Shown here in pieces: positions 3,163-20,874 of a stretch of DNA of 20,970 nt (position 1 is its first letter; each line of letters opens with the position of its first letter). The notes below the pieces were generated by a model. It saw nothing but the letters and a program-made list of their open reading frames with translations. It was not told the DNA's origin and ran no database searches. Source of the DNA: Candidatus Altarchaeota archaeon (lineage in GTDB: Archaea; SpSt-1190); contig JAUUZA010000010.1 in the NCBI GenBank assembly GCA_030590165.1, positions 1-20,970 of the forward strand, read 5' to 3'. The position numbers were made by a program, and so were the translations under genes.

Positions 3163-4545
3163 ATGGCTTATGGTGGATATTCATATATTGATAAAAATTA
3201 TAGACCAAAAAAAACAGATTTTGTTACAATTCTTTGGGTAAAGGGAGAATCTACTTTTGAAATGTTGTCCGAGGCACTTGCTGCTGAAAGTTCTGTTGGA
3301 ACTTGGACTAAACTCGCAACCATGAACGATTTCGTTTGGAAAAAACTTCGTGCTCACGTTTTCAAAACCATAAAAGTTTCAGCTAATTCAGGATATGTTT
3401 ACATTGCTTATCCATACGACCACTTTGATTCAAGAAATTTACTCCAAATTTTAGCAAGTATAAGAGGAAATATTTATGGAATGAAAGAAATTCAAGAACT
3501 TAAAATCCTCGATTGGGTAATGCCCGAAAAATTTCAAAAACAATTCCCCGGACCAAAAATTGGGATAAAAGAAATTAGAAAAATTATTGGAACAAAATCT
3601 CGCCCTCATGTTGGAACAATTGTAAAACCCAAAGTAGGGCTCTCAGCAAAGGAGTGGGCGGATGTTGCACAAAAAGCTTTCATGGGTGGTCTTGACATGG
3701 TAAAAGATGATGAAAATCTTGTAAATCAAACGTTTTGTCCATGGGAAGAAAGAGTCATAAGAACTATCGAAGCCGCCGATAAAGCAAAAGATGAATTAGG
3801 TGAGGGAAAAATTTATGTTTCAAATATAACAGATTCAATCCCAAAAATGATTGAACGAATTGAATTCTTAGATGAACATGGATGGAAACAATGTATGATT
3901 GATGTCTATGTAATGGGAATTGCTGGAACTGAAGAAATTTTGAGAGAGCTTCACAAGCGAAAATTTTTGGTTCACGCTCACCGAGCAGGACATGGTGCTG
4001 AAACCAGAGGCCCTTGGGGGGTTGGTTTTAACTTCTGGGAAAAAATTTATCGCTTATTAGGTGTAAGCCAACTTCACACTGGAACTGGTGTGGGAAAAAT
4101 GGAAGGTTCACCCTTATTCATACAAAAATATGGAGAAATCGCAAGCAAACAAAAAATAAAGGGATTTGAACCTCTTTTCTTAAATTTTAAATGGGCAAAA
4201 AATATCAAACCAATGATGCCGGTTGCAAGTGGGGGACTTCATCCAGGACTTGTTGAAGGCGTTACAGCCATATATGGAAAGGACGTAACTATTATGGCAG
4301 GAGGAGGAATTCACGGACATCCTAAAGGCACCTTATATGGTGCAAAAGCTCAGAGGGCTGCTGCTGAAGATGTCAACAAGGGAATTAAATTAAATAAAAC
4401 ACAGAACATCTATCTTCAAGAAGCAATTAAAAAATGGGGATATGTAAGTGGAATTGAAATCAAAAAAAGAATAACTTCAATAAAAAAACTACCAATAAAA
4501 AAAATTGCGAAAGGTGGACTTGAAGCTCTTGATAAATTAAACTAA
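3163..4545 (+). CDS. rbcL: Ribulose-1,5-bisphosphate carboxylase, archaeal form III type
   Basis: This enzyme carboxylates ribulose-1,5-bisphosphate to two 3-phosphoglycerates. In archaea it works in AMP/nucleoside degradation rather than in the Calvin cycle. All catalytic positions are present (spinach numbering in brackets): E42 (E60) in AAESSVGTWT, T47 and W48, N103 (N123), K155 and K157 (K175, K177) in VKPK, the carbamylated K181 with D183 and E184 (K201, D203, E204) in VKDDE, H273 and R274 (H294, R295) in HAHRAGH, H305 (H327), loop-6 K312 (K334) in TGVGKMEG, S356 (S379) and G380-G381. At 460 aa it is slightly longer than typical form III proteins (about 425-445), the excess being a basic C-terminus. 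The HRAGHGAETR segment resembles forms II, II/III and III-a more than III-b, so the subform is left open. No small subunit is present. e2b2 follows after 11 bases in the same operon. Confidence 0.96.
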   Translation: MAYGGYSYIDKNYRPKKTDFVTILWVKGESTFEMLSEALAAESSVGTWTKLATMNDFVWKKLRAHVFKTIKVSANSGYVYIAYPYDHFDSRNLLQILASIRGNIYGMKEIQELKILDWVMPEKFQKQFPGPKIGIKEIRKIIGTKSRPHVGTIVKPKVGLSAKEWADVAQKAFMGGLDMVKDDENLVNQTFCPWEERVIRTIEAADKAKDELGEGKIYVSNITDSIPKMIERIEFLDEHGWKQCMIDVYVMGIAGTEEILRELHKRKFLVHAHRAGHGAETRGPWGVGFNFWEKIYRLLGVSQLHTGTGVGKMEGSPLFIQKYGEIASKQKIKGFEPLFLNFKWAKNIKPMMPVASGGLHPGLVEGVTAIYGKDVTIMAGGGIHGHPKGTLYGAKAQRAAAEDVNKGIKLNKTQNIYLQEAIKKWGYVSGIEIKKRITSIKKLPIKKIAKGGLEALDKLN

Positions 4546-4546
4546 T

Positions 4547-4553
4547 AGGTGAT
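4547..4553 (+). promoter_or_regulatory. Shine-Dalgarno site of e2b2
   Basis: AGGTGAT in the 11-base gap after rbcL, four bases before the ATG at 4557, complements the archaeal 16S 3' end. It decides the start and shows that e2b2 is translated as an internal operon gene. Confidence 0.7.
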
Positions 4554-4556
4554 GTA

Positions 4557-5411
4557 ATGAATACAATTGAAAAAATTGCAAACAAAATTAAAAAAATTGA
4601 GATTCAAGGAGCAACAAAAATTGCATTGTCTTCACTTGAAGTAATTCATGACTTTGCAAAAAAAAATAAAGTTGAAGAAATTCATAAAGGTATTAATTTA
4701 CTTCTCAGCACCCGACCAACTGAACCCTTAATGATTAATACTTTAACTTCACTAAAAAAAATATCAGACCCTTCAGAAATTAGTGAACGCGCGTTTCTAT
4801 TTAAAAAATCAATAAAAAAAAGTATGAATAAAATTGTTGAAATTGGAAGTAGATTAATTGAAGACGGTATGACTATCCAAACTATTTGTCATAGTTCAAC
4901 AGTCGTTAATATTATTAAAGAAGCACGAGATCAAGGTAAAAAAATAAAAGTAATAAATACTGAAACGCGTCCAAGATTTCAAGGAAGAATAACTGCTGAA
5001 GAACTTTACAAAGCAAGAGTTCCAGTTAAGATGTATGTTGATTCAGCAATGTATTCTGCTATGAGTAAAGAAAAAGTTAATATTGCTTTAGTTGGGATTG
5101 ATGCCATTTTTGTTGATGGAAGTATAGCAAATAAAATTGGAACTGGTCTTTTTTCTTTAGCAGCAGAAGCCTTAGAAATTCCATTCTATGCATCAGGACT
5201 CGCATTAAAACTTGATACAGGGTCTTTAATGGCACAATCTGTAAAAATTGAAGAACGTGACCCAAGAGAAGTATGGAGTTATCCAATTAACATTGGAAAT
5301 CCTGCATTTGAAATAGTACCTTCAAAACGAATTAAAGGAATTATCACAGAACTTGGAGTATTACCTCCAACAACTGCACATATTCAGATAGAAAAAGCAT
5401 ATAAAATCTAA
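4557..5411 (+). CDS. e2b2: Ribose-1,5-bisphosphate isomerase (eIF-2B-like family)
   Basis: This enzyme isomerises ribose-1,5-bisphosphate to ribulose-1,5-bisphosphate, the RuBisCO substrate, downstream of AMP phosphorylase. The protein has the eIF-2B alpha/beta/delta and MtnA-type fold. Motifs in order: IQGATKIA (16-23), STRPTEPL (51-58), the catalytic cysteine C111 in CHSSTV, NTETRPRFQGR (134-144), and the catalytic aspartate D182 in VGIDAIFVDG followed by ANKIGT. C111 and D182 correspond to the cysteine and aspartate shown to act in the Thermococcus kodakarensis enzyme. The distinction from eIF-2B regulatory subunits and from methylthioribose-1-phosphate isomerase rests on these motifs and on adjacency to rbcL. 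At 284 aa it is shorter than the Thermococcus protein (about 320), mostly at the N-terminus. It is cotranscribed with rbcL and has a good GGTGAT ribosome binding site. Confidence 0.92.
   Translation: MNTIEKIANKIKKIEIQGATKIALSSLEVIHDFAKKNKVEEIHKGINLLLSTRPTEPLMINTLTSLKKISDPSEISERAFLFKKSIKKSMNKIVEIGSRLIEDGMTIQTICHSSTVVNIIKEARDQGKKIKVINTETRPRFQGRITAEELYKARVPVKMYVDSAMYSAMSKEKVNIALVGIDAIFVDGSIANKIGTGLFSLAAEALEIPFYASGLALKLDTGSLMAQSVKIEERDPREVWSYPINIGNPAFEIVPSKRIKGIITELGVLPPTTAHIQIEKAYKI
5399..5407 (+). promoter_or_regulatory. TATA-like box inside the end of e2b2
   Basis: ATATAAAAT overlaps the last codons of e2b2, 19-27 bases before the ATG at 5426. That ATG has no ribosome binding site. The next gene therefore probably has its own promoter despite a gap of only 14 bases. 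Confidence 0.45.
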
Positions 5412-10535: not shown

Positions 10536-11504
10536 TTACAGAAGTTCCAATGCCCTCTTCATAGTATGACTTATTGCATAAATTTCCCCATTTACTGGGT
10601 CAAAAAAGGCAATCTCATTGTCAATTGCCCATTTTAAGAGTTTAGGATGAACTTCATCAACTGAAATTGCTTCTCTTGATAATTTTTTAACGAACCTAAA
10701 TTCTTTGGCTCCAACTGATTTTAATAAGAATTTCACTCTTGACATTTTTCTTTTTACAAGCGATTCAAGAACTCCTATTCCTCCAGTTGAACGGAAATGT
10801 TGAATTGAAATCCATAAATCAAATGGCCTTCCACCTACAACTGAAAAAACTTTCTTTGCTTTTACTTCATTCATACCTTCTTCTTGAAGCCATTCTAAAA
10901 TATTAGTTTTTGGTAAATCACCAACATACATAAATTCAGATGCTTCTTCAAGTCCTGCTTGTTTCACTATTTCATCAATGAATAAACAATCACTCGTTAC
11001 AATAATGGCATGAGCAATATGCAAACGCTTCGTTAAAGTAACTAAAAAGTTTAAGAGTTGAGCTAAATCTTTTGTATCAATTCCAGAATACTTTAAATTT
11101 TGAATTTCATCAAGAATAAGAACGGGTCGTTTCAATCCCTTTAATTTATTCACTAATGGAGCAAAGGGGTCAAGCTTACCTTCAGCCATCATTTTAATTT
11201 GGTTTGGGTGTAAAACAATTCCATCCTCAACATTACTGTGTCTTAATTTTTTTCTAAAATAATGTCGAACTCTCTCACTAAAACCAGGACGAGGAACAGT
11301 TAAAATTTCATGTAACTCAGTTGGACTTTTTGCCCGAAAATCATAAAGAATGACATCATTTTTAATTTGAGTTGCAAGCTTCATCATTAAAGTACTTTTC
11401 CCACTAGATTTTGGTCCATAAACAAATAAAACGAAGTTTGGGGGAGCATTCAAGATATTTGAGAGTTGCCACAACTCAGCTTCCCTATTAATGAATTTAA
11501 GCAC
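10536..11504 (-). CDS. Archaeal AAA-type ATPase (Arch_ATPase family)
   Basis: This 322-aa P-loop ATPase begins with the family signature FINREAELWQL (residues 4-14). The Walker A is GPKSSGKST (30-38), the Walker B is PVLILDEIQ (127-135), and a sensor-like IIVTSD is near 167-172. A C-terminal winged-helix-like region follows (ESLVKRKMSRVKFLLKS, then ISVDEVHPKLLKWAIDNEI). This is the PF01637 (archaeal ATPase) layout. Members are widespread in archaea, often with unknown partners, and some link to membrane or DNA processes. The start is a GTG at 11504 with a TATA-like box 20-28 bases upstream. It lies directly after the four-gene membrane cluster on the same strand, 34 bases from it, so it may energise that complex, but its own promoter makes this uncertain. 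metG follows. Confidence 0.9.
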   Translation of the reverse strand: MLKFINREAELWQLSNILNAPPNFVLFVYGPKSSGKSTLMMKLATQIKNDVILYDFRAKSPTELHEILTVPRPGFSERVRHYFRKKLRHSNVEDGIVLHPNQIKMMAEGKLDPFAPLVNKLKGLKRPVLILDEIQNLKYSGIDTKDLAQLLNFLVTLTKRLHIAHAIIVTSDCLFIDEIVKQAGLEEASEFMYVGDLPKTNILEWLQEEGMNEVKAKKVFSVVGGRPFDLWISIQHFRSTGGIGVLESLVKRKMSRVKFLLKSVGAKEFRFVKKLSREAISVDEVHPKLLKWAIDNEIAFFDPVNGEIYAISHTMKRALELL

Positions 11505-11538: not shown

Positions 11539-12501
11539 TCATTTTTTAATATCTAAACGATTACCAGTTGCAGCGTTAATATCTTTTATTATCATCCAAA
11601 ATGCCACAAAAACAAGGAAGTCTGCCACGACGGCTATAAGAGTCAAACCAGCAATAAAGAAAACCGGTAGAGCTAATCCATGAAGAATTGGTATTGATGC
11701 AAGGTCAAAACTAAAGAATTTATCAGCAAAATAAAGAAGTATTGCTGCAACAAAAACTAAACCGCTCACCGAACTCACTGTCTTTTTTATTCTCCTTTCT
11801 CCTTTCTCTTTTTTTGTATCATCCCCACTCAAAAAAACACTTCCCAAAAGAATCCGGGAAATCATAAAAAATCCTGCAATCGCACCTAATATGAGAACAA
11901 ACATGAGGATACTCAAAGATATGTCAGATGTGAATCCAAAATTAAGAAAAGTATCCAACCCTATAAATTTAGAGGGAAATACATCAAGAAGATAAAATAT
12001 TGTTGAACTCGACAAAAATCCACCGAAGGGAACACCAGAAACAGGAACTCCATCAATAACAATTGAATTTATTAAACCTAAATTTCCTGCTTTGGCTATG
12101 AACATTACAACTGCAGTTAGTGAAATCATATTTGCAATTTTTTCATCTCCGAATCCATAACTAAACCAATACTTCACAAAATTATAAACGAATCCAGCCG
12201 GGATAAGATATGCAAAAATTATTATAGGATTTCCGGCAATTGAAATCCCAAAGAAACTTTCTAAGAGAGTATTCATTAAAGTATATGCCTGTTTTATGGG
12301 TTCATTAAGAAAAGTATCCCAGAGGAAAATATCAAGTTTCAAATCCTTGTAATATACAATAAGTGAATAAATAAAAAATAAAATTCTACCTTCAAATGCT
12401 TTTTGCTTCGTCATAACATCCTTGGTTGACGAAAAAATTATTTCAACAATCATGAATAAATAAACAAACGACAATACCGTAATGAGAGTTTCAATTATCA
12501 T
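11539..12501 (-). CDS. Polytopic membrane protein of the membrane-complex cluster (320 aa)
   Basis: About eight transmembrane segments are visible: residues 3-24, 39-53, 92-112, 123-139, 158-174, 193-217, 243-263 and 278-305. A charged loop (SGDDTKKEKGERRIKK) lies between the sixth and seventh, and a short basic tail ends in NRLDIKK. Two glycine/proline-rich stretches (GVPVSGVPFGGFL, and GNPIIIFAYLIPAG) may be re-entrant or pore-lining. It has no recognised catalytic motif and no cysteine. It is the last of three closely packed genes (11 bases after the previous stop). A GTGAT ribosome binding site at 12507-12511 supports the ATG at 12501. I recognise no family; a channel or scaffold subunit of the neighbouring complex is inference from context. 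Confidence 0.82.
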   Translation of the reverse strand: MIIETLITVLSFVYLFMIVEIIFSSTKDVMTKQKAFEGRILFFIYSLIVYYKDLKLDIFLWDTFLNEPIKQAYTLMNTLLESFFGISIAGNPIIIFAYLIPAGFVYNFVKYWFSYGFGDEKIANMISLTAVVMFIAKAGNLGLINSIVIDGVPVSGVPFGGFLSSSTIFYLLDVFPSKFIGLDTFLNFGFTSDISLSILMFVLILGAIAGFFMISRILLGSVFLSGDDTKKEKGERRIKKTVSSVSGLVFVAAILLYFADKFFSFDLASIPILHGLALPVFFIAGLTLIAVVADFLVFVAFWMIIKDINAATGNRLDIKK

Positions 12502-12512: not shown

Positions 12513-13220
12513 TCAAATGTTTCCTCTTCCTTCCTTAAAGTTGTCAACATCACTATTTGCTGTTCCAGCAATAGTAGACCCTTCTCCACGCACATCCTTT
12601 GCGGCACCTATACTAAGTAACCCAGTATAAGCACTAATTATTCTCATCGCTAACATAAATACTATGAAGATAATAAATCCAACCCCTGAAATCATAACAT
12701 TAAGCCAATTTGAAATTAAATCAAAAACATTTATTGCATTCAAAAAGAAAATTGCAATTAAAGTTATTGAAGACTGAAGGAAAAGTTTTGTTGTTTTTGA
12801 AAATGCAAATAGATAACGCATAATATATTCAAGCCAAATAAAAATGAATAATCCTGAAAAAACAAATTTGAAAAGACCCATTACATCCATTCCAAAAACG
12901 GCAGGAAGATATTTGAAAATCAAACTCGTTATAAAAAAACCAAAAAGCACTGAAGGCATATTCCCAAGGCCAACCGCAATATTCAAAATCATCCAGAATA
13001 AAATTAATATAATAAAAAATGCACGTGTAGACGGAAGCTCAAAAACATTGCAGTTATCAGGGTCATCACACCCTTCACTCAAATTCGGTACCAAACCAAA
13101 GGCCTTAAGATTATCAGTTATCATTGGGATAAATTCACCCAAGTCAAAGTCGAGAATGGTTTGTGCATATGAATTTGAAAATAAAAAAAGAAGAGAAAAA
13201 ATTAAGAATTTTTTTCTCAT
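12513..13220 (-). CDS. Membrane protein with signal peptide, membrane-complex cluster (235 aa)
   Basis: A signal peptide (KKFLIFSLLFLFSNSYA, cleavage before QTILDF) is followed by a short acidic extracytoplasmic stretch with two cysteines (SEGCDDPDNCNVFELPS) that could form a disulfide. About five transmembrane helices fill residues 66-205. A small hydrophilic tail (KDVRGEGSTIAGTANSDV) ends the protein. The ATG at 13220 shares one base with the stop of the preceding gene (TAATG). AGGTGAG at 13226-13232 is its ribosome binding site, so it is translationally coupled. The layout of a signal peptide, a small ectodomain and then several helices is reminiscent of channel subunits of secretion or conjugation systems (VirB6/TrbL-like), but I see no sequence motif to prove that. 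Function unknown. Confidence 0.82.
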   Translation of the reverse strand: MRKKFLIFSLLFLFSNSYAQTILDFDLGEFIPMITDNLKAFGLVPNLSEGCDDPDNCNVFELPSTRAFFIILILFWMILNIAVGLGNMPSVLFGFFITSLIFKYLPAVFGMDVMGLFKFVFSGLFIFIWLEYIMRYLFAFSKTTKLFLQSSITLIAIFFLNAINVFDLISNWLNVMISGVGFIIFIVFMLAMRIISAYTGLLSIGAAKDVRGEGSTIAGTANSDVDNFKEGRGNI

Positions 13221-14194
13221 TAATTCTCACCTTGTTTTTTCTTTAGGGCCTCATTAACATTTGACAGGGCTAATGCGCCTCCGACAACATTTGTTACTGA
13301 ATCAACAGTAGACTTGGCAACGCCAGCAGTCATAGTAATCTGTCCTAAAAGAACAGCTAAAATTGCCATGGCAAATATTGCAGCAAGGAAACTCTGCCCC
13401 AAACTCAAACCAACAAAACTCGAAACTGCAACTAAAAGATTTGCAAATGCACCAGTTAATATTGCAATCAAAGACGCAAAAATTGCAATCAATCTCCGTG
13501 TATTTGTTCTGAAGTAAGCAAAGGCCAAAATATCATTCAATAAATAGTAAGTTATTAAGAAAGGAAGCAGACCAAATATGAAGAAACATTGCCATGCTGG
13601 GCGTTTTTCTGTCATGAGTTGAATTGCAATTTTATTTGACTTACTAATACTCTCTTGTTGAATCGCGTTTAAACTTGCAAAGAAAGTATCAGAAGTTATT
13701 GAAACATTACTTCCACCAGTCACATCGTCTTCATCACCAAAACAATGACCTAATTCATAATCACTTTCCCCATCGCAGTTTTCAGTAGCATAATCTATGT
13801 TGTTTTTTACTGTAATCATTTGAATATTTTCTTCAACCCCTACAGTCTCAAGGGAAATTGAGTAAAAATAAGAACTACAATTATTAAGACCTTCTTCATT
13901 TCTCGTCTCATCTGTAGCATCACTTAAACTAAGGTCTTCAACCGCATATCTTATTGGTCCACAAAGCGGGTGATTTCCAGTTATTTCTAAACCACCTGCT
14001 GAATAAATTGACATTGCATAAGGATTAATGAAAGGACAATATCCAACCTCCCCCCCAAAAGCGTTTTCTATATTTTGCCTAAAGCTCAAAAAAGCCTTAC
14101 CGAATGTTGAACTTGGAGAAAATGCAGCCATTGTTCCAAAAATTAAAATCACGCCGAATAGAAGCCAAATAGTGTCTTGAGTCTTCCCTCTCAT
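13220..14194 (-). CDS. Cys-rich ectodomain membrane protein, paralogue B of a tandem pair (324 aa)
   Basis: One N-terminal transmembrane helix (residues 9-26) is followed by an extracytoplasmic domain of about 175 residues, three or more helices (about 202-290), and a short cytoplasmic tail. The ectodomain starts with YCPFINPYAMSIYSAGGLEI and holds further cysteines (HPLCGP, NNCSSYF, ENCDGES, GHCFGD). Just before the next helices is PAWQCFFIFGLLPF, then LLNDILAF. These same motifs, in the same order, are in the gene upstream, so the two are tandem duplicates. The ectodomain has an extra acidic insertion (GHCFGDEDDVTGG) compared with its sister. The ATG at 14194 is preceded by a TATA-like box and no ribosome binding site, so it starts a three-gene operon. 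The family is unrecognised. Confidence 0.85.
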   Translation of the reverse strand: MRGKTQDTIWLLFGVILIFGTMAAFSPSSTFGKAFLSFRQNIENAFGGEVGYCPFINPYAMSIYSAGGLEITGNHPLCGPIRYAVEDLSLSDATDETRNEEGLNNCSSYFYSISLETVGVEENIQMITVKNNIDYATENCDGESDYELGHCFGDEDDVTGGSNVSITSDTFFASLNAIQQESISKSNKIAIQLMTEKRPAWQCFFIFGLLPFLITYYLLNDILAFAYFRTNTRRLIAIFASLIAILTGAFANLLVAVSSFVGLSLGQSFLAAIFAMAILAVLLGQITMTAGVAKSTVDSVTNVVGGALALSNVNEALKKKQGEN

Positions 14195-14210
14195 AAAGGA
14201 AACTGTCAGA

Positions 14211-14226
14211 ACTATCTTATATGTAT
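14211..14226 (-). promoter_or_regulatory. TATA-like box for the three-gene membrane operon
   Basis: The minus strand reads ACATATAAGATAGT within the 51-base gap between the paralogues, 20-30 bases before the ATG at 14194. There is no ribosome binding site, so the transcript is probably leaderless. Confidence 0.5.
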
Positions 14227-14245
14227 TGCGAATGAAAACTTATCT

Positions 14246-15160
14246 TCATTTAAAATAATCCTTAATTGACTTTTGTTTCTTAGCTTTTGGCGAACTTCCA
14301 CTGCTACCAGTTTGTGATACTGCAGAAAGCATTTTTCTTTGAGCAAGCCCAGCAGCAGCTTGCGCAGACATTTTTCTTCCAGCCGCAAAGGCATTACTAA
14401 ATGAAGAAATCCAATTAAGGAGCAATGAAATAAACATGAATATTAACAAAACAATAAGGAAAGTAGCTTGAACACTCATCGATGCAATATGTGCAAGCTG
14501 CCATACAAAATTTGAAAATGTTCCTGTCATTATAGCAAGGAAAGACGTCATTAAAATTATGAGGTATTTCACTTTGTCTCTCAAAGGGGTGAATTGTAAA
14601 ATATCTTTTAAGAAAAAGAACATTGCGAAAAATGGCATTAATCCAAAGAACAACAAACATTGCCAACCTGGAATTTTATCTTTCAAGCTTAATCCAAAAC
14701 CAGTCTTTACACTGGATTCATTCAAACCTTCAATCATTTTACTCGTTGATAAAAATATTTCACTTGAAATTTCGTCCTTACAAGAAAGGGCGTATTCTTC
14801 AGTATCATAATTATATATTGCTGCCATAGATGAACTGCAACTAAACTCAAGATTCCTTTCTTCTTTCCCATAAACATATTCCAATGCTCCATGTATTGGT
14901 GAACTCTTTGTCACTTCAAGTGCACCGGTTGAAAATAATTGAGACATATATGGATTGATATACGGACAATAATCCTTTGTTGTCATACCTGTTAAATTCA
15001 ATTGTTCAGAAAGAAAAGGAGGAATTAAACCACCAAACAATCCGTCAAGCTGTTCTTCCAATTCAGGATTGTCCTCTGCACTACTAGTGAACCACATATA
15101 CACGGAACCAAAAACTATCATCAAAATCAAGGCTAACTTAAGTAAAAAGTCACGCGGCAT
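14246..15160 (-). CDS. Cys-containing ectodomain membrane protein, paralogue A of a tandem pair (304 aa)
   Basis: The topology matches the downstream gene. An N-terminal helix (residues about 6-25) precedes an ectodomain beginning DYCPYINPYMSQLFSTGALEV, with CSSSMAAIY and LSCKDE, then IPGWQCLLFFGLMPFF and LKDILQF leading into three further helices. A cytoplasmic tail rich in Ala, Gln, Ser and Lys (AQAAAGLAQRK... KAKKQKSIKDYFK) follows. The tail is longer and more basic than in the sister protein. I chose the ATG at 15160; a TTG one codon earlier is possible but less likely. The gene is divergent from the giant plus-strand gene, and an AT-rich TATA-like patch lies 21-30 bases upstream. The family is unrecognised. 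Shared cysteines suggest conserved disulfides. Confidence 0.86.
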   Translation of the reverse strand: MPRDFLLKLALILMIVFGSVYMWFTSSAEDNPELEEQLDGLFGGLIPPFLSEQLNLTGMTTKDYCPYINPYMSQLFSTGALEVTKSSPIHGALEYVYGKEERNLEFSCSSSMAAIYNYDTEEYALSCKDEISSEIFLSTSKMIEGLNESSVKTGFGLSLKDKIPGWQCLLFFGLMPFFAMFFFLKDILQFTPLRDKVKYLIILMTSFLAIMTGTFSNFVWQLAHIASMSVQATFLIVLLIFMFISLLLNWISSFSNAFAAGRKMSAQAAAGLAQRKMLSAVSQTGSSGSSPKAKKQKSIKDYFK

Positions 15161-15174
15161 CAAAAAGGTAATAA

Positions 15175-18100
15175 GTGGGTAGCATAAAAGCTTTTAGAGG
15201 GAAAATAGTGAAAATTGATACTTCATTTTGGATGTATTCTGTTGGAGTTTTGGCCGTATTATTTCTTATTGCCTCAATTTTTTTTCTCATAAGTCCAAAT
15301 AATACCCTTTTTACTGCATCACTTGCCATAGCGATTCTGACGGTAATAATCACTTTTCTTTTGAAAAGAAGTATAGAAAAAGGAAGTTCATCTGAAAAAC
15401 TTAAAAAGGGAATTATTCAAATTGGAACTGGTTCACTTGTTTCTGGTGGGGCCTTAATCCTCATAATTTCACTCTTTATTTTCTTCTTTGGTGGCGATCC
15501 AGCCGCAATTCTTTTTGGTTTATTATCTATTGAATTAATTTTAATGGGTTTAATTTTTTCAGGAGCAGGAAAAGGGGGAACAATTGTAACTATCATAGGC
15601 TTAGTTGGTTTTGACGCTATTTTTGTTTTTTTCTTACCTAGCAAATTCCCAATTCTTTCAACCATTCCTCTTGACCCTTGGCTGGGGTTTGCCCTATTAA
15701 TTTTATCTAAAGTTGCCATACTTGGTTTTCTCGCAACAATTGGTTTACAAATATTTCCTGAAAAAACAGGAGACGGAGGATTTGAGATTGCATCAATTTT
15801 TCAAATGCTTTTTGTTTTCTTTTTTGCAGCAATTCTAATAACCGCAATTGCTTTCCCAATATATTTCTTAGTAAGTTATGCAGGAACAGCAAGTGAAACA
15901 ACAACCAGTTTAATTGAAGTTCAAAACCCACTCATTCAAACCTTTCTGACTGATGCATTTCTAGCAGCCGATAGTACTGGAAATGTTTTACTTCAAATCG
16001 CAGAGACTTTTGCACCAAGTGGTGTGGAATCAATTACAATCCCTACTAAAGTTTTTAGGGTTTTTGCAGGGAGTATCTGGTCTGTATTCCTTGGACTACC
16101 TCTCGAATATCCTTCAGGGGAACTTGTTTTGCCAGCAACAATAATTACAATTGAAATTTCTGTTTTAGCAATAATGATGTTTGCAGTTTTCTTCCTCAAT
16201 AGAAACCACTTAATAAATTTTGGAAATATGCAAAAAACATCAAAAGGATGGATAGCTAAAACATATAAAAAACTAGAGGGAGCAGGTTATAGTTATCTTG
16301 AATTAAAAGCAATGAATTTTGTTGATGTGTGGCGTGATTGGTTAACTAACTCAAAACTATTTGGGAGTGAATTAAATGAAATCTCAAATGAAATTAATCA
16401 CTCAATTAATAATGCAAATTCAACAAACTCAAAACAAACAAAAGCAAAATTAACAGATTTAGTTTTAAAATTACAAAAAGTAAAAACAAATTATCTCAAA
16501 GATTTAACAAATATGTCCTTTGCAACAGTAATGGATTTTTTCATTTGGACTCCTACTATGGTGGTTTTTTATCTCGGTGTTTTAATTATTTCAACATTAA
16601 TAATGTGGTTACAAACTTTTGATGCTCTCAATTTTCTAACAATATTTCCACCTTGGACGCCCCTCTTCCTCGGATTAATGGTATTATGTGTCTGGTTATG
16701 GAGATCAATTTCACTTCTTGCAAAGAGAATGTATAGCGTGACTATGACTATGTTACCGGGGACACTTCAATATGTATATAATCTCCTTTTCATCTCAGAA
16801 GAAGCAAGTTTAAGCGGTCTTGCCATACTTACGGCTTCTTTAATTTCTTTAACTCTTCTTTCACTCGGGGTCGTATGGGGATTGAGCTTTGGAACTCTTC
16901 TTTTAGTTCTTGTTCTTTTTGTTTTATTATCGGCAGTACTAATGCTCCTTTCTAAAAAATTCTTTGAACTTGCAGGAACTTCATTTGTATTCATATTCAT
17001 AATTCGAGCAATTATGAGTACACTTGAAAGTTCAGGAATGGGAATAACTCTTTTTGATATGACTTTATCTAATTCACTTTCAATCTTACTTTACTTAACT
17101 GTTTTTGTGTTCTGGTTTGATTTTCTTGTTCACTTATTTTTGATAGCTTCATTCAAGGCGACAAAAAATATATTCAGTTTAGTTGAGTCCATTTCACTTC
17201 CTTCCTTTGGTGGTCCTTCAGAAGAAATGATGTTAACTACAGGAAAAACAAGTGCGAAAAACACTGAAAAAATGATTGATAAACTTGTTGATGATTTGGT
17301 TGAAAAAAGTACAAAAAGAACCTCTGAAATGACAAAACAGACTGGAAAAGCATACACTGCAATTAAAGATGCGGAAGGTAATGCAATCATTTTACCGAAT
17401 AAAATAAAAAAAATCTCTGACTCTGTCAAAGAAGCGCAAATCCAAGCATACAAAGTTACTGGAAAAAACAAAAGAAAGGGCAAAGAAGCAACATACGACA
17501 TTTTAAAAACGACAAAACAAGTAATAATTACAGATAAATATGGAAACACAACGATGGTTCCACACACTGGCCCTCTTGGCGATTTAGGTAAATTTATTGC
17601 AACACATCTCAAACTTCCCTCCTTCAAAAAAAACAGGGTTGAAGCTATTGGAACACCCAGTTTAGAAAGTTTAACTAATATAAAAGACGATGACGCATTT
17701 AAGAACACTTTTAACTTTATGGAAACAGCAAAAGTTGGGATGGACGGTCATGTTTATTTTAATGGCTTAGAAAAATATGGAAGAATTAATCGAAAAGGAG
17801 ACATTTCACTTATTGATAAAGAAACCTTTGACAAAACAGCAATAAATTATAAAAGCGATGTCGGAGCTATTTTGAAACAAATAAGACCAAGTGAAAACAC
17901 CAATCAAATATCAAATGAAATTAAAAAAAGGATAATTCTTGAAAAGCACCACCCAGGTTTTGGTTCAGCCCATAATTTACTTAAAATAGACGATAACAAA
18001 TTTGAGTTTTCAAACGAAGGAATAACTAACTTTAAAAAAAGAAAAGAATTAATTTATGAAAACAAAATGAAAAATTTTAATTTTGATAATGTTTTCAAAG

Positions 18101-20874
18101 AAAGTGTTCCAGGACAATATATTGAAATGCTTACGACAGGCAACACAAAAATGTTTCTAAAAATAAAAAATTCATATAAAAAAGGAAAAGATGAGGTCAA
18201 AACCTTCCAAATGGGGGATGATGATGGTTCTTCTCTTTTTTCAGTTAAAAATCCAAGAGGTATGGATATAGATAATTTTCAAAATATAATGAATAATTTG
18301 TCTAACGCAAAAATTAATGGGAAATCAATCAATTTAAAAGATACCACAAACTTAAAACGAATTTTAAGAGGTCAAACAAATCAGATGCTTAATATAAAAG
18401 ATGAACAAGGAAACTCAATTGAAGTTTCTCTTGCTAATCAAAAATTTGGGAGACGCGGTCGTTTCATTAATCGGTTCCGTCCTGGTTCACAACAAATTTT
18501 GAAAATTAAATCAAAAGGAAGTGAATTAACTTTTAACAGTGAAAAAAGTTTCGGAAAATTTGTAGAATCTTCAACTCATTTCAAAGGTCTAAAGAGAAAA
18601 CTATCTCAACCAAAAAGAGCAAGCAATACTTTAAAAAATGCAATATTAACACTAAAAAGACAAAATAAAAAAATTTCCACTTCTAACTTAAACGAACTTG
18701 TTGAAGTTGTTAAGTTAGACCAACAAACAATTGAAAAACTTGAAAAGTTAGACCAAGAATTCAAAAATGATTTAGAAGGTTTTGGTTTAGTAGCAAGATT
18801 TTTAGGGGATTCTTCAAACATCGAAACCCCAAATAAAAAAAATCAAAAATCTTTTGAAAAATTTTTAGAGAAACAAAATTTATCTGAAGAAGCAAAAAAG
18901 AACGCACTACCTAAATTAGGTGACTATTTTAAAAATAAAGAAGAAAACTTGGAAAAAAATAAAGATAGAAGAGATAAGATTCTTTCCAATTTAGAAGACA
19001 AAAACAAATCAAAACAGGAAATCTTAAGAGAGGTTTTTAAAGAAGTTCAAAAATCGGAAGATTATTCTCCACGACACGACACAAAAATAAGAAGAGCAAT
19101 TGAAAAAAAATTTAAAAATTTATCTGATGATGTTTTTAATGAATTAGAAGTTGGACTTATCTTAAGAGATGCTGGTAACGGCACTATTGACCCCAACTCA
19201 ATTGAAAATTCAATAAATAACATTCTTCCCAAACAAAAGTTAATTTCTAATTTAAAATCTCAAAAAACTCAAGGTGACTTTTTAGAAAACCAAAAAGAAA
19301 ACCGAACAAAATGGAAAAAAGATGCAGATAAAATATTCGAAACAACTTCAATCAAGGAAGGTGATTTTTCATCTGAACTTGATTCAACAGAAAAAGAAGA
19401 CCCTCCAATTTTTTACGAAAAAACGCCAAAAGAAAAACTTAAAGTTACAATTGAGAAAGGAGAAAAATTGTTGAAAAAATTAAAATCTAAGAAAACAGAA
19501 ACAAGTGAATCAATATCAAGTTCAATAGACGAAGAAACTCAACAAAAATCAACCGAGGCTCCCGTGGAAGTTCGTGCAGAAAAAATATTAAAAGAAATTC
19601 TTGATAAAAAATCAGCTGAAAAACAAAATGTCGTGATTGAAGAAAAGCTTCAAAAAGAACCAATTAAACTTGTTGAAAAAAAGCAAGTTGAAAGTTTAAA
19701 ACGAGAACCAACCAAAACACCTGATATATTAACTCCGCCTGCTTTAACTAAAGATAATAAGCAAAAGGAAACTATCTTTCCAGAAACAGAAAAAGGGTTT
19801 AAAGAGAGAGACAAACGTCGAAAAATAGACTACCAAAAAGCAGTGAAAGAAGCTAACATTGAAAACGCTAGAATTGAAGAAAATTACATAAAAGACAGAA
19901 ATCTTGCTTATGAAGAGAATAAAAAAATAGATGCCGCAGATAAAGTTTGGATGAAACGAAAACAAAAACCAACTGTTAGTGTCGACATCAAAACAAACAG
20001 AAATGGCTTAACCGAAGAATTCAGAAACACCTTATCAAAAAGTAGTGTAGATGAAATAAAAATATTACAAGAGGAAATAATACGTAAAAATACACAAAAA
20101 AAAGAAGGCAACACTTCAGGTGAAGACTTAACTAAACAAAATATTGATGACATAATTGAAATTCACGCTGGAAATATTAAGCCACCACGTGAAAAACTAA
20201 CTTTTTTTCAAAAAAGAAAATTAAGACAAGATGAAAAATCAAAACAAAAACAAATCGAAATAAATAAACATAACGAAGAAGTAGCTAAAAGAGCTAAACA
20301 AAATCGTAAAGAACGCTCTGAACAAAAAGAAGGGTATAAAAAAAGAAAACAAGAAGATAAAAAAATTGAAAGCCTAAAAACTGAAGCTAAAAATAAAGCT
20401 GACTTAGAATTTGAAAAAAATCAGGATCGAGGCAGATTACATGAAATTAAAGAAGAAATAAAAAGAAAAATATCAGAAAGTTCAGACCCACTCGAAATAC
20501 AAAAGTTAACTATTGAATTCAATGCATTCGACACTAAATATGATGAAATAGGAAAAAAATTTCAAGAAGAAAAACTCAAGCGCGAAGAAAACGCAAAAAA
20601 ACAATCAAAAAAAACAGAAAGAAAACTACAAAGACAAAAGATTAGATCTAAATTATTTGGAAAAAGAAAATCAGGAAACAAATCTCCACATTTAGATAAC
20701 CTTAAGATAAGTCAAAAATCAGGAAGTTCAGACAGAAACAAAGCTATTGAAAAAGAATTAAATAAATTCCCAGAACCACTATCTGGAATTCCATCATCAG
20801 AACCAACAACCGAACCAAGTTCAAAAAAGGAAGAATCAACCCCTTCAAAAAAGAAAAAGCTGCTAGAAGGCTAA
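15175..20874 (+). CDS. Giant polytopic membrane protein with long charged cytoplasmic tail (1,899 aa)
   Basis: The first 660 residues contain about 14 predicted transmembrane helices (near 20-40, 44-63, 85-106, 110-130, 134-154, 168-193, 208-235, 319-341, 450-478, 493-515, 545-567, 570-592, 597-616, 635-660). An extracytoplasmic-looking loop spans 236-318 and a charged amphipathic loop spans 342-449. The remaining 1,240 residues are hydrophilic, rich in Lys, Glu, Asn and Ser. They include a probably folded part at about 680-1150 (for example MDGHVYFNGLEKYGRINRKG) and long coiled-coil stretches later (such as EREEKLKREENAKKQSKK-like heptads), and end in a Ser/Pro/Thr-rich tail (SSEPTTEPSSKKEESTPSKK). 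There is no P-loop or other enzyme motif. The frame is open without frameshift over 5.7 kb. The GTG at 15175 follows an AGGT; the GTG at 15208 fits the TATA spacing better. I recognise no family. A large scaffold or surface-machine component is inference. Confidence 0.85.
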   Translation: MGSIKAFRGKIVKIDTSFWMYSVGVLAVLFLIASIFFLISPNNTLFTASLAIAILTVIITFLLKRSIEKGSSSEKLKKGIIQIGTGSLVSGGALILIISLFIFFFGGDPAAILFGLLSIELILMGLIFSGAGKGGTIVTIIGLVGFDAIFVFFLPSKFPILSTIPLDPWLGFALLILSKVAILGFLATIGLQIFPEKTGDGGFEIASIFQMLFVFFFAAILITAIAFPIYFLVSYAGTASETTTSLIEVQNPLIQTFLTDAFLAADSTGNVLLQIAETFAPSGVESITIPTKVFRVFAGSIWSVFLGLPLEYPSGELVLPATIITIEISVLAIMMFAVFFLNRNHLINFGNMQKTSKGWIAKTYKKLEGAGYSYLELKAMNFVDVWRDWLTNSKLFGSELNEISNEINHSINNANSTNSKQTKAKLTDLVLKLQKVKTNYLKDLTNMSFATVMDFFIWTPTMVVFYLGVLIISTLIMWLQTFDALNFLTIFPPWTPLFLGLMVLCVWLWRSISLLAKRMYSVTMTMLPGTLQYVYNLLFISEEASLSGLAILTASLISLTLLSLGVVWGLSFGTLLLVLVLFVLLSAVLMLLSKKFFELAGTSFVFIFIIRAIMSTLESSGMGITLFDMTLSNSLSILLYLTVFVFWFDFLVHLFLIASFKATKNIFSLVESISLPSFGGPSEEMMLTTGKTSAKNTEKMIDKLVDDLVEKSTKRTSEMTKQTGKAYTAIKDAEGNAIILPNKIKKISDSVKEAQIQAYKVTGKNKRKGKEATYDILKTTKQVIITDKYGNTTMVPHTGPLGDLGKFIATHLKLPSFKKNRVEAIGTPSLESLTNIKDDDAFKNTFNFMETAKVGMDGHVYFNGLEKYGRINRKGDISLIDKETFDKTAINYKSDVGAILKQIRPSENTNQISNEIKKRIILEKHHPGFGSAHNLLKIDDNKFEFSNEGITNFKKRKELIYENKMKNFNFDNVFKESVPGQYIEMLTTGNTKMFLKIKNSYKKGKDEVKTFQMGDDDGSSLFSVKNPRGMDIDNFQNIMNNLSNAKINGKSINLKDTTNLKRILRGQTNQMLNIKDEQGNSIEVSLANQKFGRRGRFINRFRPGSQQILKIKSKGSELTFNSEKSFGKFVESSTHFKGLKRKLSQPKRASNTLKNAILTLKRQNKKISTSNLNELVEVVKLDQQTIEKLEKLDQEFKNDLEGFGLVARFLGDSSNIETPNKKNQKSFEKFLEKQNLSEEAKKNALPKLGDYFKNKEENLEKNKDRRDKILSNLEDKNKSKQEILREVFKEVQKSEDYSPRHDTKIRRAIEKKFKNLSDDVFNELEVGLILRDAGNGTIDPNSIENSINNILPKQKLISNLKSQKTQGDFLENQKENRTKWKKDADKIFETTSIKEGDFSSELDSTEKEDPPIFYEKTPKEKLKVTIEKGEKLLKKLKSKKTETSESISSSIDEETQQKSTEAPVEVRAEKILKEILDKKSAEKQNVVIEEKLQKEPIKLVEKKQVESLKREPTKTPDILTPPALTKDNKQKETIFPETEKGFKERDKRRKIDYQKAVKEANIENARIEENYIKDRNLAYEENKKIDAADKVWMKRKQKPTVSVDIKTNRNGLTEEFRNTLSKSSVDEIKILQEEIIRKNTQKKEGNTSGEDLTKQNIDDIIEIHAGNIKPPREKLTFFQKRKLRQDEKSKQKQIEINKHNEEVAKRAKQNRKERSEQKEGYKKRKQEDKKIESLKTEAKNKADLEFEKNQDRGRLHEIKEEIKRKISESSDPLEIQKLTIEFNAFDTKYDEIGKKFQEEKLKREENAKKQSKKTERKLQRQKIRSKLFGKRKSGNKSPHLDNLKISQKSGSSDRNKAIEKELNKFPEPLSGIPSSEPTTEPSSKKEESTPSKKKKLLEG
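15181..15190. promoter_or_regulatory. Possible bidirectional TATA-like patch between divergent membrane genes
   Basis: AGCATAAAAG lies 21-30 bases before the minus-strand ATG at 15160. It also lies 18-27 bases before an in-frame GTG at 15208 on the plus strand. One AT patch could position both leaderless transcripts. If so, the plus-strand protein starts at 15208 rather than at the GTG at 15175. Confidence 0.4.

Follow-up and report, generated by a model that had tools for sequence, protein, structure and literature searches.

Two paralogous membrane proteins of an Altiarchaeota genome belong to a larger paralogous set tied to a CpaF/TadC-type machine

The tandem genes A and B of the window, i.e., the whole stretch of 20,970 nucleotides that was analysed, encode paralogous membrane proteins. 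The sequence-only reading had treated them as a pair, which understates the case, because A and B belong to a larger paralogous set (A to H) that is tied to a CpaF/TadC-type machine. We consider it fairly probable that they are subunits with outer domains in a DPANN machine that is akin to type IV filaments and has a membrane part built from paralogues. The following was observed: A, B, E and F are homologous, as are G and H; A and B are strictly paired and have two invariant cysteines; G-type arrays co-occur with one subfamily of CpaF; and a single contig joins nearly all parts.

Results

Gene order in the window

The window is an entire contig (G000:C21) of a 724-kb genome assembly with a completeness of 88%. 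The genomes that were compared are fragmented assemblies, and the named relatives, which were taken from an alignment scan, are assemblies from metagenomes that carry the label Candidatus Altiarchaeota or DPANN. Downstream of A and B lie C, D, an ATPase_2 gene and a MetRS gene, all on the minus strand, and a giant membrane protein is encoded divergently from A:

14246 to 15160, minus strand: gene A, open reading frame of 304 aa with TM1, an outer domain and three more TM helices (AF2 model, pLDDT 74)
13220 to 14194, minus strand: gene B, open reading frame of 324 aa, paralogue of A (AF2 model, pLDDT 65.5)
12513 to 13220, minus strand: gene C, 235 aa, signal peptide and TM helices, probable distant A/B paralogue (hhalign of A/B with C, E 2.3e-5)
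11539 to 12501, minus strand: gene D, 320 aa, polytopic, possible distant paralogue
10536 to 11504, minus strand: AAA ATPase of the family PF01637 (ATPase_2, Pfam E 1.6e-28), after D in the window's family
15175 to 20874, plus strand: giant membrane protein, 1899 aa, about 13 TM segments and then a long soluble tail

Six other genomes of the family have retained the order A-B-C-D-ATPase-MetRS, as far as their contigs extend. Elsewhere in the window, judged by sequence recognition only, positions 3163 to 5411 hold a type III RuBisCO-like gene and then a ribose-1,5-bisphosphate isomerase-like gene (AMP pathway).

A and B are full-length paralogues

An old duplication behind A and B had been proposed from shared motifs in the same order despite a low overall identity. 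All of these motifs were verified residue by residue at their places in both proteins. In A the order is YCPYINPYMSQLFSTGALEVT, CSS, PGWQC directly before LLFFGLMPF, and LKDILQF; in B it is YCPFINPYAMSIYSAGGLEIT, CSS, PAWQC directly before FFIFGLLPF, and LNDILAF. A tblastn search within the own genome connected A and B over residues 131-256 with 31% identity (E 1.4e-17), and a profile-profile alignment with hhalign covered nearly the full length at E 6.5e-44, while two unrelated membrane families and reversed profiles gave E-values of 0.04-0.6 with the A/B profile. The AlphaFold models of both proteins have the same order of elements, in agreement with the common order and topology that had been claimed.

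The age of the duplication was also supported. Five other genomes of the family contain both A and B in the same order, some copies being truncated where a contig ends, and in a phylogenetic tree the two are set apart from their relatives E and F (96/89). A formed one clade (97/94), and B one side of a weakly supported branch (62/81). Proteins of the A/B type were detected in all ten genomes of the phylum that were searched and, in a profile search at E 1e-3, in none of 287 other archaeal genomes. The strict pairing favours a heteromer of A and B, as had been suggested, and makes it plausible. A viral origin was considered and discarded, as the A/B alignment scan of IMG/VR yielded no relative.

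One cysteine pair at the base of the outer domain is invariant

The outer domains were delimited with the AF2 secondary structure and, for A, also with hydropathy. They and the cysteines concerned are located as follows:

14669 to 15076, minus strand: outer domain of A (residues about 29-164)
13598 to 14119, minus strand: outer domain of B (residues about 26-199)
14966 to 14968, minus strand: Cys65 of A (YCP), invariant in 13 of 13 sequences
14657 to 14659, minus strand: Cys168 of A (WQC), at the outer end of TM2, invariant in 13 of 13 sequences
14036 to 14038, minus strand: Cys53 of B (YCP), invariant in 13 of 13 sequences
13586 to 13588, minus strand: Cys203 of B (WQC), invariant in 13 of 13 sequences
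13715 to 13804, minus strand: acidic, Cys-containing insertion of B (residues about 131-160), from the alignment, pLDDT below 50

Both models show a helix, a strand, a helix, three strands and a helix, and then the TM helices. The predicted elements are H70-78, E80-84, H88-100, E111-117, E122-127, E134-138 and H139-153 in A, and H58-66, E68-73, H78-89, E106-118, E121-130, E163-167 and H168-182 in B. Eight columns are invariant among the 13 A/B-type sequences, i.e., C65, W166, C168, G173, P176, D186, F190 and F234 in the numbering of A. Relatives from another family (G008 and G007) are almost devoid of the outer domain and yet retain C...WQC or C...WAC; thus, the constant feature is the basal cysteine pair, and the intervening domain is a variable insert. 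In both models a two-residue strand pairing was seen directly before each invariant cysteine, which fits a single disulfide close to the membrane. Cys65-Cys168 of A and Cys53-Cys203 of B probably form this one disulfide at the base of the outer domain.

The idea of a disulfide-stabilised outer domain is consistent with the data for this one pair only. The other cysteines are lineage-specific and vary between A and B and between species. The cysteine of the CSS motif (Cys106) is invariant in B, together with Cys78, whereas in A it is not conserved, as the available part of two of the five orthologues contains no cysteines other than those of YC and WVC. Thus, CSS is present in A and B of the window, but was rejected as a conserved shared motif. 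The acidic insertion that had been noticed in one copy was confirmed for B, where it contains Cys140 and Cys151 and was modelled with low confidence; something similar occurs in the B protein of G003, and it is absent from the other B orthologues. As a separate observation, all six B orthologues begin with M(K/R) or M(K/R)(K/R), followed by G, a polar stretch with Asp and TM1 (window positions 14160 to 14194). This start is loosely like a class III (prepilin-type) signal, and A has no such start.

Foldseek recognised nothing for the two models in the PDB (best E 0.84 for A and 2.4 for B) or in BFVD (best E 0.15), and the best VIA-align hit, with Z 5.8, was a designed protein within the chance range. 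A search for sequence relatives in the PDB gave none below E 0.78. These missing fold matches do not make the fold new. None of the array members tested matched Pfam or NCBIfam above the cut-offs. Below its cut-off, B gave a match to the bicarbonate transporter family PF00955 (E 6.5e-4, 19 bits); if it were genuine, the proteins could be ordinary transporters. This is extremely improbable, because the score lies under the curated cut-off of 27, A has no match, the matched stretch spans the insertion of B and only a part of the TM region, and no fold match accompanies it. The transporter identity was thus rejected.

A and B belong to a larger paralogous set

A weak match of A in another contig of the own genome (C13) revealed a second conserved cluster, E-F-G-H. 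The proteins A, B, E and F are linked by profile searches at E 1e-7 to 1e-17; for example, an F profile built without A or B found B at E 1e-17 and E at E 9e-11 in the own genome. Profile-profile alignments with hhalign gave E 2.7e-15 for E with F and E 2.4e-12 for A/B with F. The outer parts of E and F also contain a cysteine pair in most members. G and H are tandem paralogues with four TM helices (hhalign E 3.2e-18).

The remaining connections are weaker than those among A, B, E and F, as hhalign joined C, D, G and H at E-values between 2e-5 and 4e-5, for the most part through merged profiles. A merged profile reached D at E 3.8e-5 and G/H at E 2.1e-5, and the controls with two unrelated membrane families and reversed profiles stayed at E 0.1-0.8. 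The single pairs of D or G/H with A/B were weak (E 0.01-0.03), some of the reversed controls came down to 0.004-0.006, and G even matched its own reverse at E 5e-4 in a single-profile alignment. Because these reversed controls come so near, the weak single pairs alone are insufficient, and the link of D and G/H to A/B, which is made less firmly, comes from the merged profiles and a common register. C is reached by another route too, since the A/B profile finds its syntenic counterpart in G009 at E 3.1e-5. Profile-profile comparison placed a core of three TM helices in one register in A to H, firmly for A, B, E and F and more weakly for C, D, G and H. When 1874 six-frame open reading frames were searched, only array members were among the matches listed. 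Counterparts of the giant protein adjoin the array in G003, G008 and G007; it was tried as a further paralogue and rejected, as its hhalign E-value of 0.15 equals that of the controls.

Several further observations concern the surroundings of these genes. E-F-G-H is preceded by a conserved protein of about 200 aa that is anchored in the membrane and has the cysteine pattern ESCM-x2-DC (L093, 6080 to 6960, with equivalents in L094, L095 and L097), and at the same four loci of the window's family a small one-TM protein precedes the cluster as well. Near exosome genes of G095, four polytopic proteins of 320-357 aa stand in a row (L164, 5913 to 10875); two of the four match the F profile (E about 1e-6), and the contig is another than that of its CpaF gene. 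The array of G009, a 3.8-Mb relative, is adjoined by a repetitive, cysteine-rich, secreted-type protein of 1203 aa (L051, 149 to 3760). G104 has six tandem G-type genes (L131, 7078 to 10763), and some of their N-termini are nearly identical, suggesting a recent duplication.

The set is linked to a CpaF/TadC-type machine

The G-type profile matched 65 of 297 archaeal genomes, nearly all of them small and DPANN-sized, often with 2-7 tandem copies. A subfamily of CpaF-type ATPases was present in 64 of these 65 genomes, and G in 64 of 72 ATPase-positive genomes; the score cut-off of the subfamily was set by eye after inspection of the list (a score gap, plus split or partial copies), and the counts run across related genomes that are not independent of one another. 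In the 64 genomes with both, the distance between G and CpaF was below 10 kb in 42 cases and the two were on different contigs in 22 cases; in no case were they farther apart on the same contig. At 13 of 16 distant G loci that were inspected, a T2SSE ATPase of about 755 aa adjoins, usually together with a TadC-like platform and two coiled-coil proteins. CpaF, TadC and two coiled-coil proteins stand side by side in relatives (L129-L131, L136, L137, L144 and others). In another DPANN family (L163), CpaF, a coiled-coil protein and four G genes adjoin two proteins with Cys-containing ectodomains, one of which matches the F profile at 4e-12.

The classification of the machine parts was checked in the phylum. 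PF00437, the family of PilB/CpaF/ArlI-type secretion ATPases, was above the cut-off in all ten genomes, and the solved structures nearest to the linked subfamily are CpaF, FlaI and 2oap (a type II secretion protein). The adjacent family of 643-741 aa matched T2SSF, as expected for a PilC/TadC/ArlJ platform, in 10 of 11 members (best E 1.1e-10), with the copy of the window's genome at only E 0.33. The prepilin peptidase PF01478 was found in nine of ten genomes, in the own genome with E 4e-6 at the cut-off of 26.5 bits. The platform gene is followed by small proteins that start with M(K/R)G and a hydrophobic stretch, with one N-terminal TM helix; the two that were tested had no Pfam match. In contigs of several DPANN genomes (G213:C8, G292:C16, G133:C4, G212:C1, G185:C35 and G248:C16), the frames of CpaF-type ATPases are 1263-2013 aa long, and some of them give two split matches (e.g., profile positions 8-470 and 490-752), a pattern that would be expected from an insertion like an intein close to the nucleotide-binding region.

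In the window's family the set is divided over three loci on different contigs, and adjacency to the ATPase was seen only in relatives:

G000:C53: ATPase, platform and pilin-like genes
G000:C13: E-F-G-H, with coiled-coil genes adjoining in relatives
G000:C21 (window): A-B-C-D and the giant protein

This division, with A-D beside MetRS and the ATPase_2 gene instead of CpaF genes, would fit a separate membrane complex of A and B, perhaps with C and D, e.g., for envelope or transport functions, which shares the ancestry of the array and has lost the link to CpaF. We regard such a complex as unlikely, because a single 14.4-kb contig (C29) of G008, a relative within the same phylum, carries D, C, A/B, the giant protein, F, G, H, both coiled-coil proteins and the CpaF ATPase, and because all genomes of the phylum with A/B also have the CpaF subfamily. 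The ATPase_2 gene was not seen adjoining the array in G008, and its role in the machine is uncertain.

In another reading the genes would encode a type IV secretion system of the conjugation type, in which the giant protein serves as a channel similar to VirB6/CedA and D contributes a pilin-like component. Extended VirB6 proteins are long and polytopic with a large tail, and the build of the giant protein resembles them; D, in addition, matches T4SS_pilin (PF18895) at E 0.0033. However, the 17.9 bits of D stay below the cut-off of 26.6, so that this identity was rejected, and the giant protein matched no T4SS family. The VirB4-type ATPase (PF03135) was found in none of the ten phylum genomes, although the model is narrow, as it matched only one of 14 known genomes in a control. 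Taken together, such a secretion system is very improbable.

Discussion

The preferred reading remains the machine related to type IV filaments, and its assembly, its disulfide and its function we infer as follows. The motor would consist of the CpaF/ArlI-type ATPase, the TadC-like platform and the two coiled-coil proteins; as type IV filaments suggest by analogy, it is the ATPase that would power the platform in the membrane. A, B, E, F and the tandem pair G/H, as paralogous subunits, would form the membrane part, probably together with C and D. Side by side in the membrane, these may make up a heteromeric ring or a collar close to the platform, or else a channel of their own. The alpha/beta domains of A and B, each with a single disulfide closing its base, would point to the surface layer or to a partner cell, and the machine could build a surface appendage or a conduit for cell-cell contact.

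The main addition to the sequence-only reading is the link of A and B to a DPANN-wide machine. Only tentatively, and with considerable doubt, we extend the proposal to a contact machine common to DPANN archaea and derived from type IV filaments, with a membrane part that is a heteromeric ring or channel of as many as eight paralogues, or more, some with disulfide-closed outer domains, and that serves host attachment or exchange. How DPANN archaea attach to hosts and draw on them is a long-standing open question, and, if the proposal is true, the ring or channel of paralogues would be a conserved apparatus for this purpose. A conserved and named set of membrane proteins with the CpaF/TadC/coiled-coil locus offers candidates for tagging, pull-down and tomography, which could be followed in the few cultivated DPANN-host pairs. 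The locus is also extended to the phylum Altiarchaeota, the members of which are often viewed as free-living.

Among known systems, the archaeal DNA import systems Ced and Ted (PMC9905601) likewise combine polytopic membrane proteins with an ATPase in a surface-directed system, but the ATPase is of another kind, and the phylum gave no VirB4-type match. Archaeal type IV pili and the archaellum (Makarova et al. 2016, PMC4858521) share the T2SSE-family ATPase, the T2SSF-type platform and the prepilin peptidase. A further likeness to archaeal pili is found in the several small proteins with one N-terminal TM helix after the platform gene of the window's family. An array of paralogous polytopic proteins that bear outer domains is, to our knowledge, not described for any archaeal pilus. 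The closest counterpart is the CpaF-TadC-coiled-coil "locus 2" of DPANN, which Hamm et al. 2024 (PMC11291902) put forward as possibly involved in host interaction. The main text of that article lists cluster-2 DPANN and Undinarchaeota, not Altiarchaeota, and contains no mention of a paralogous membrane array. The neighbourhood of ATPase, platform and coiled-coil proteins is the same, and the G/H arrays lie within it in most of the genomes that were checked.
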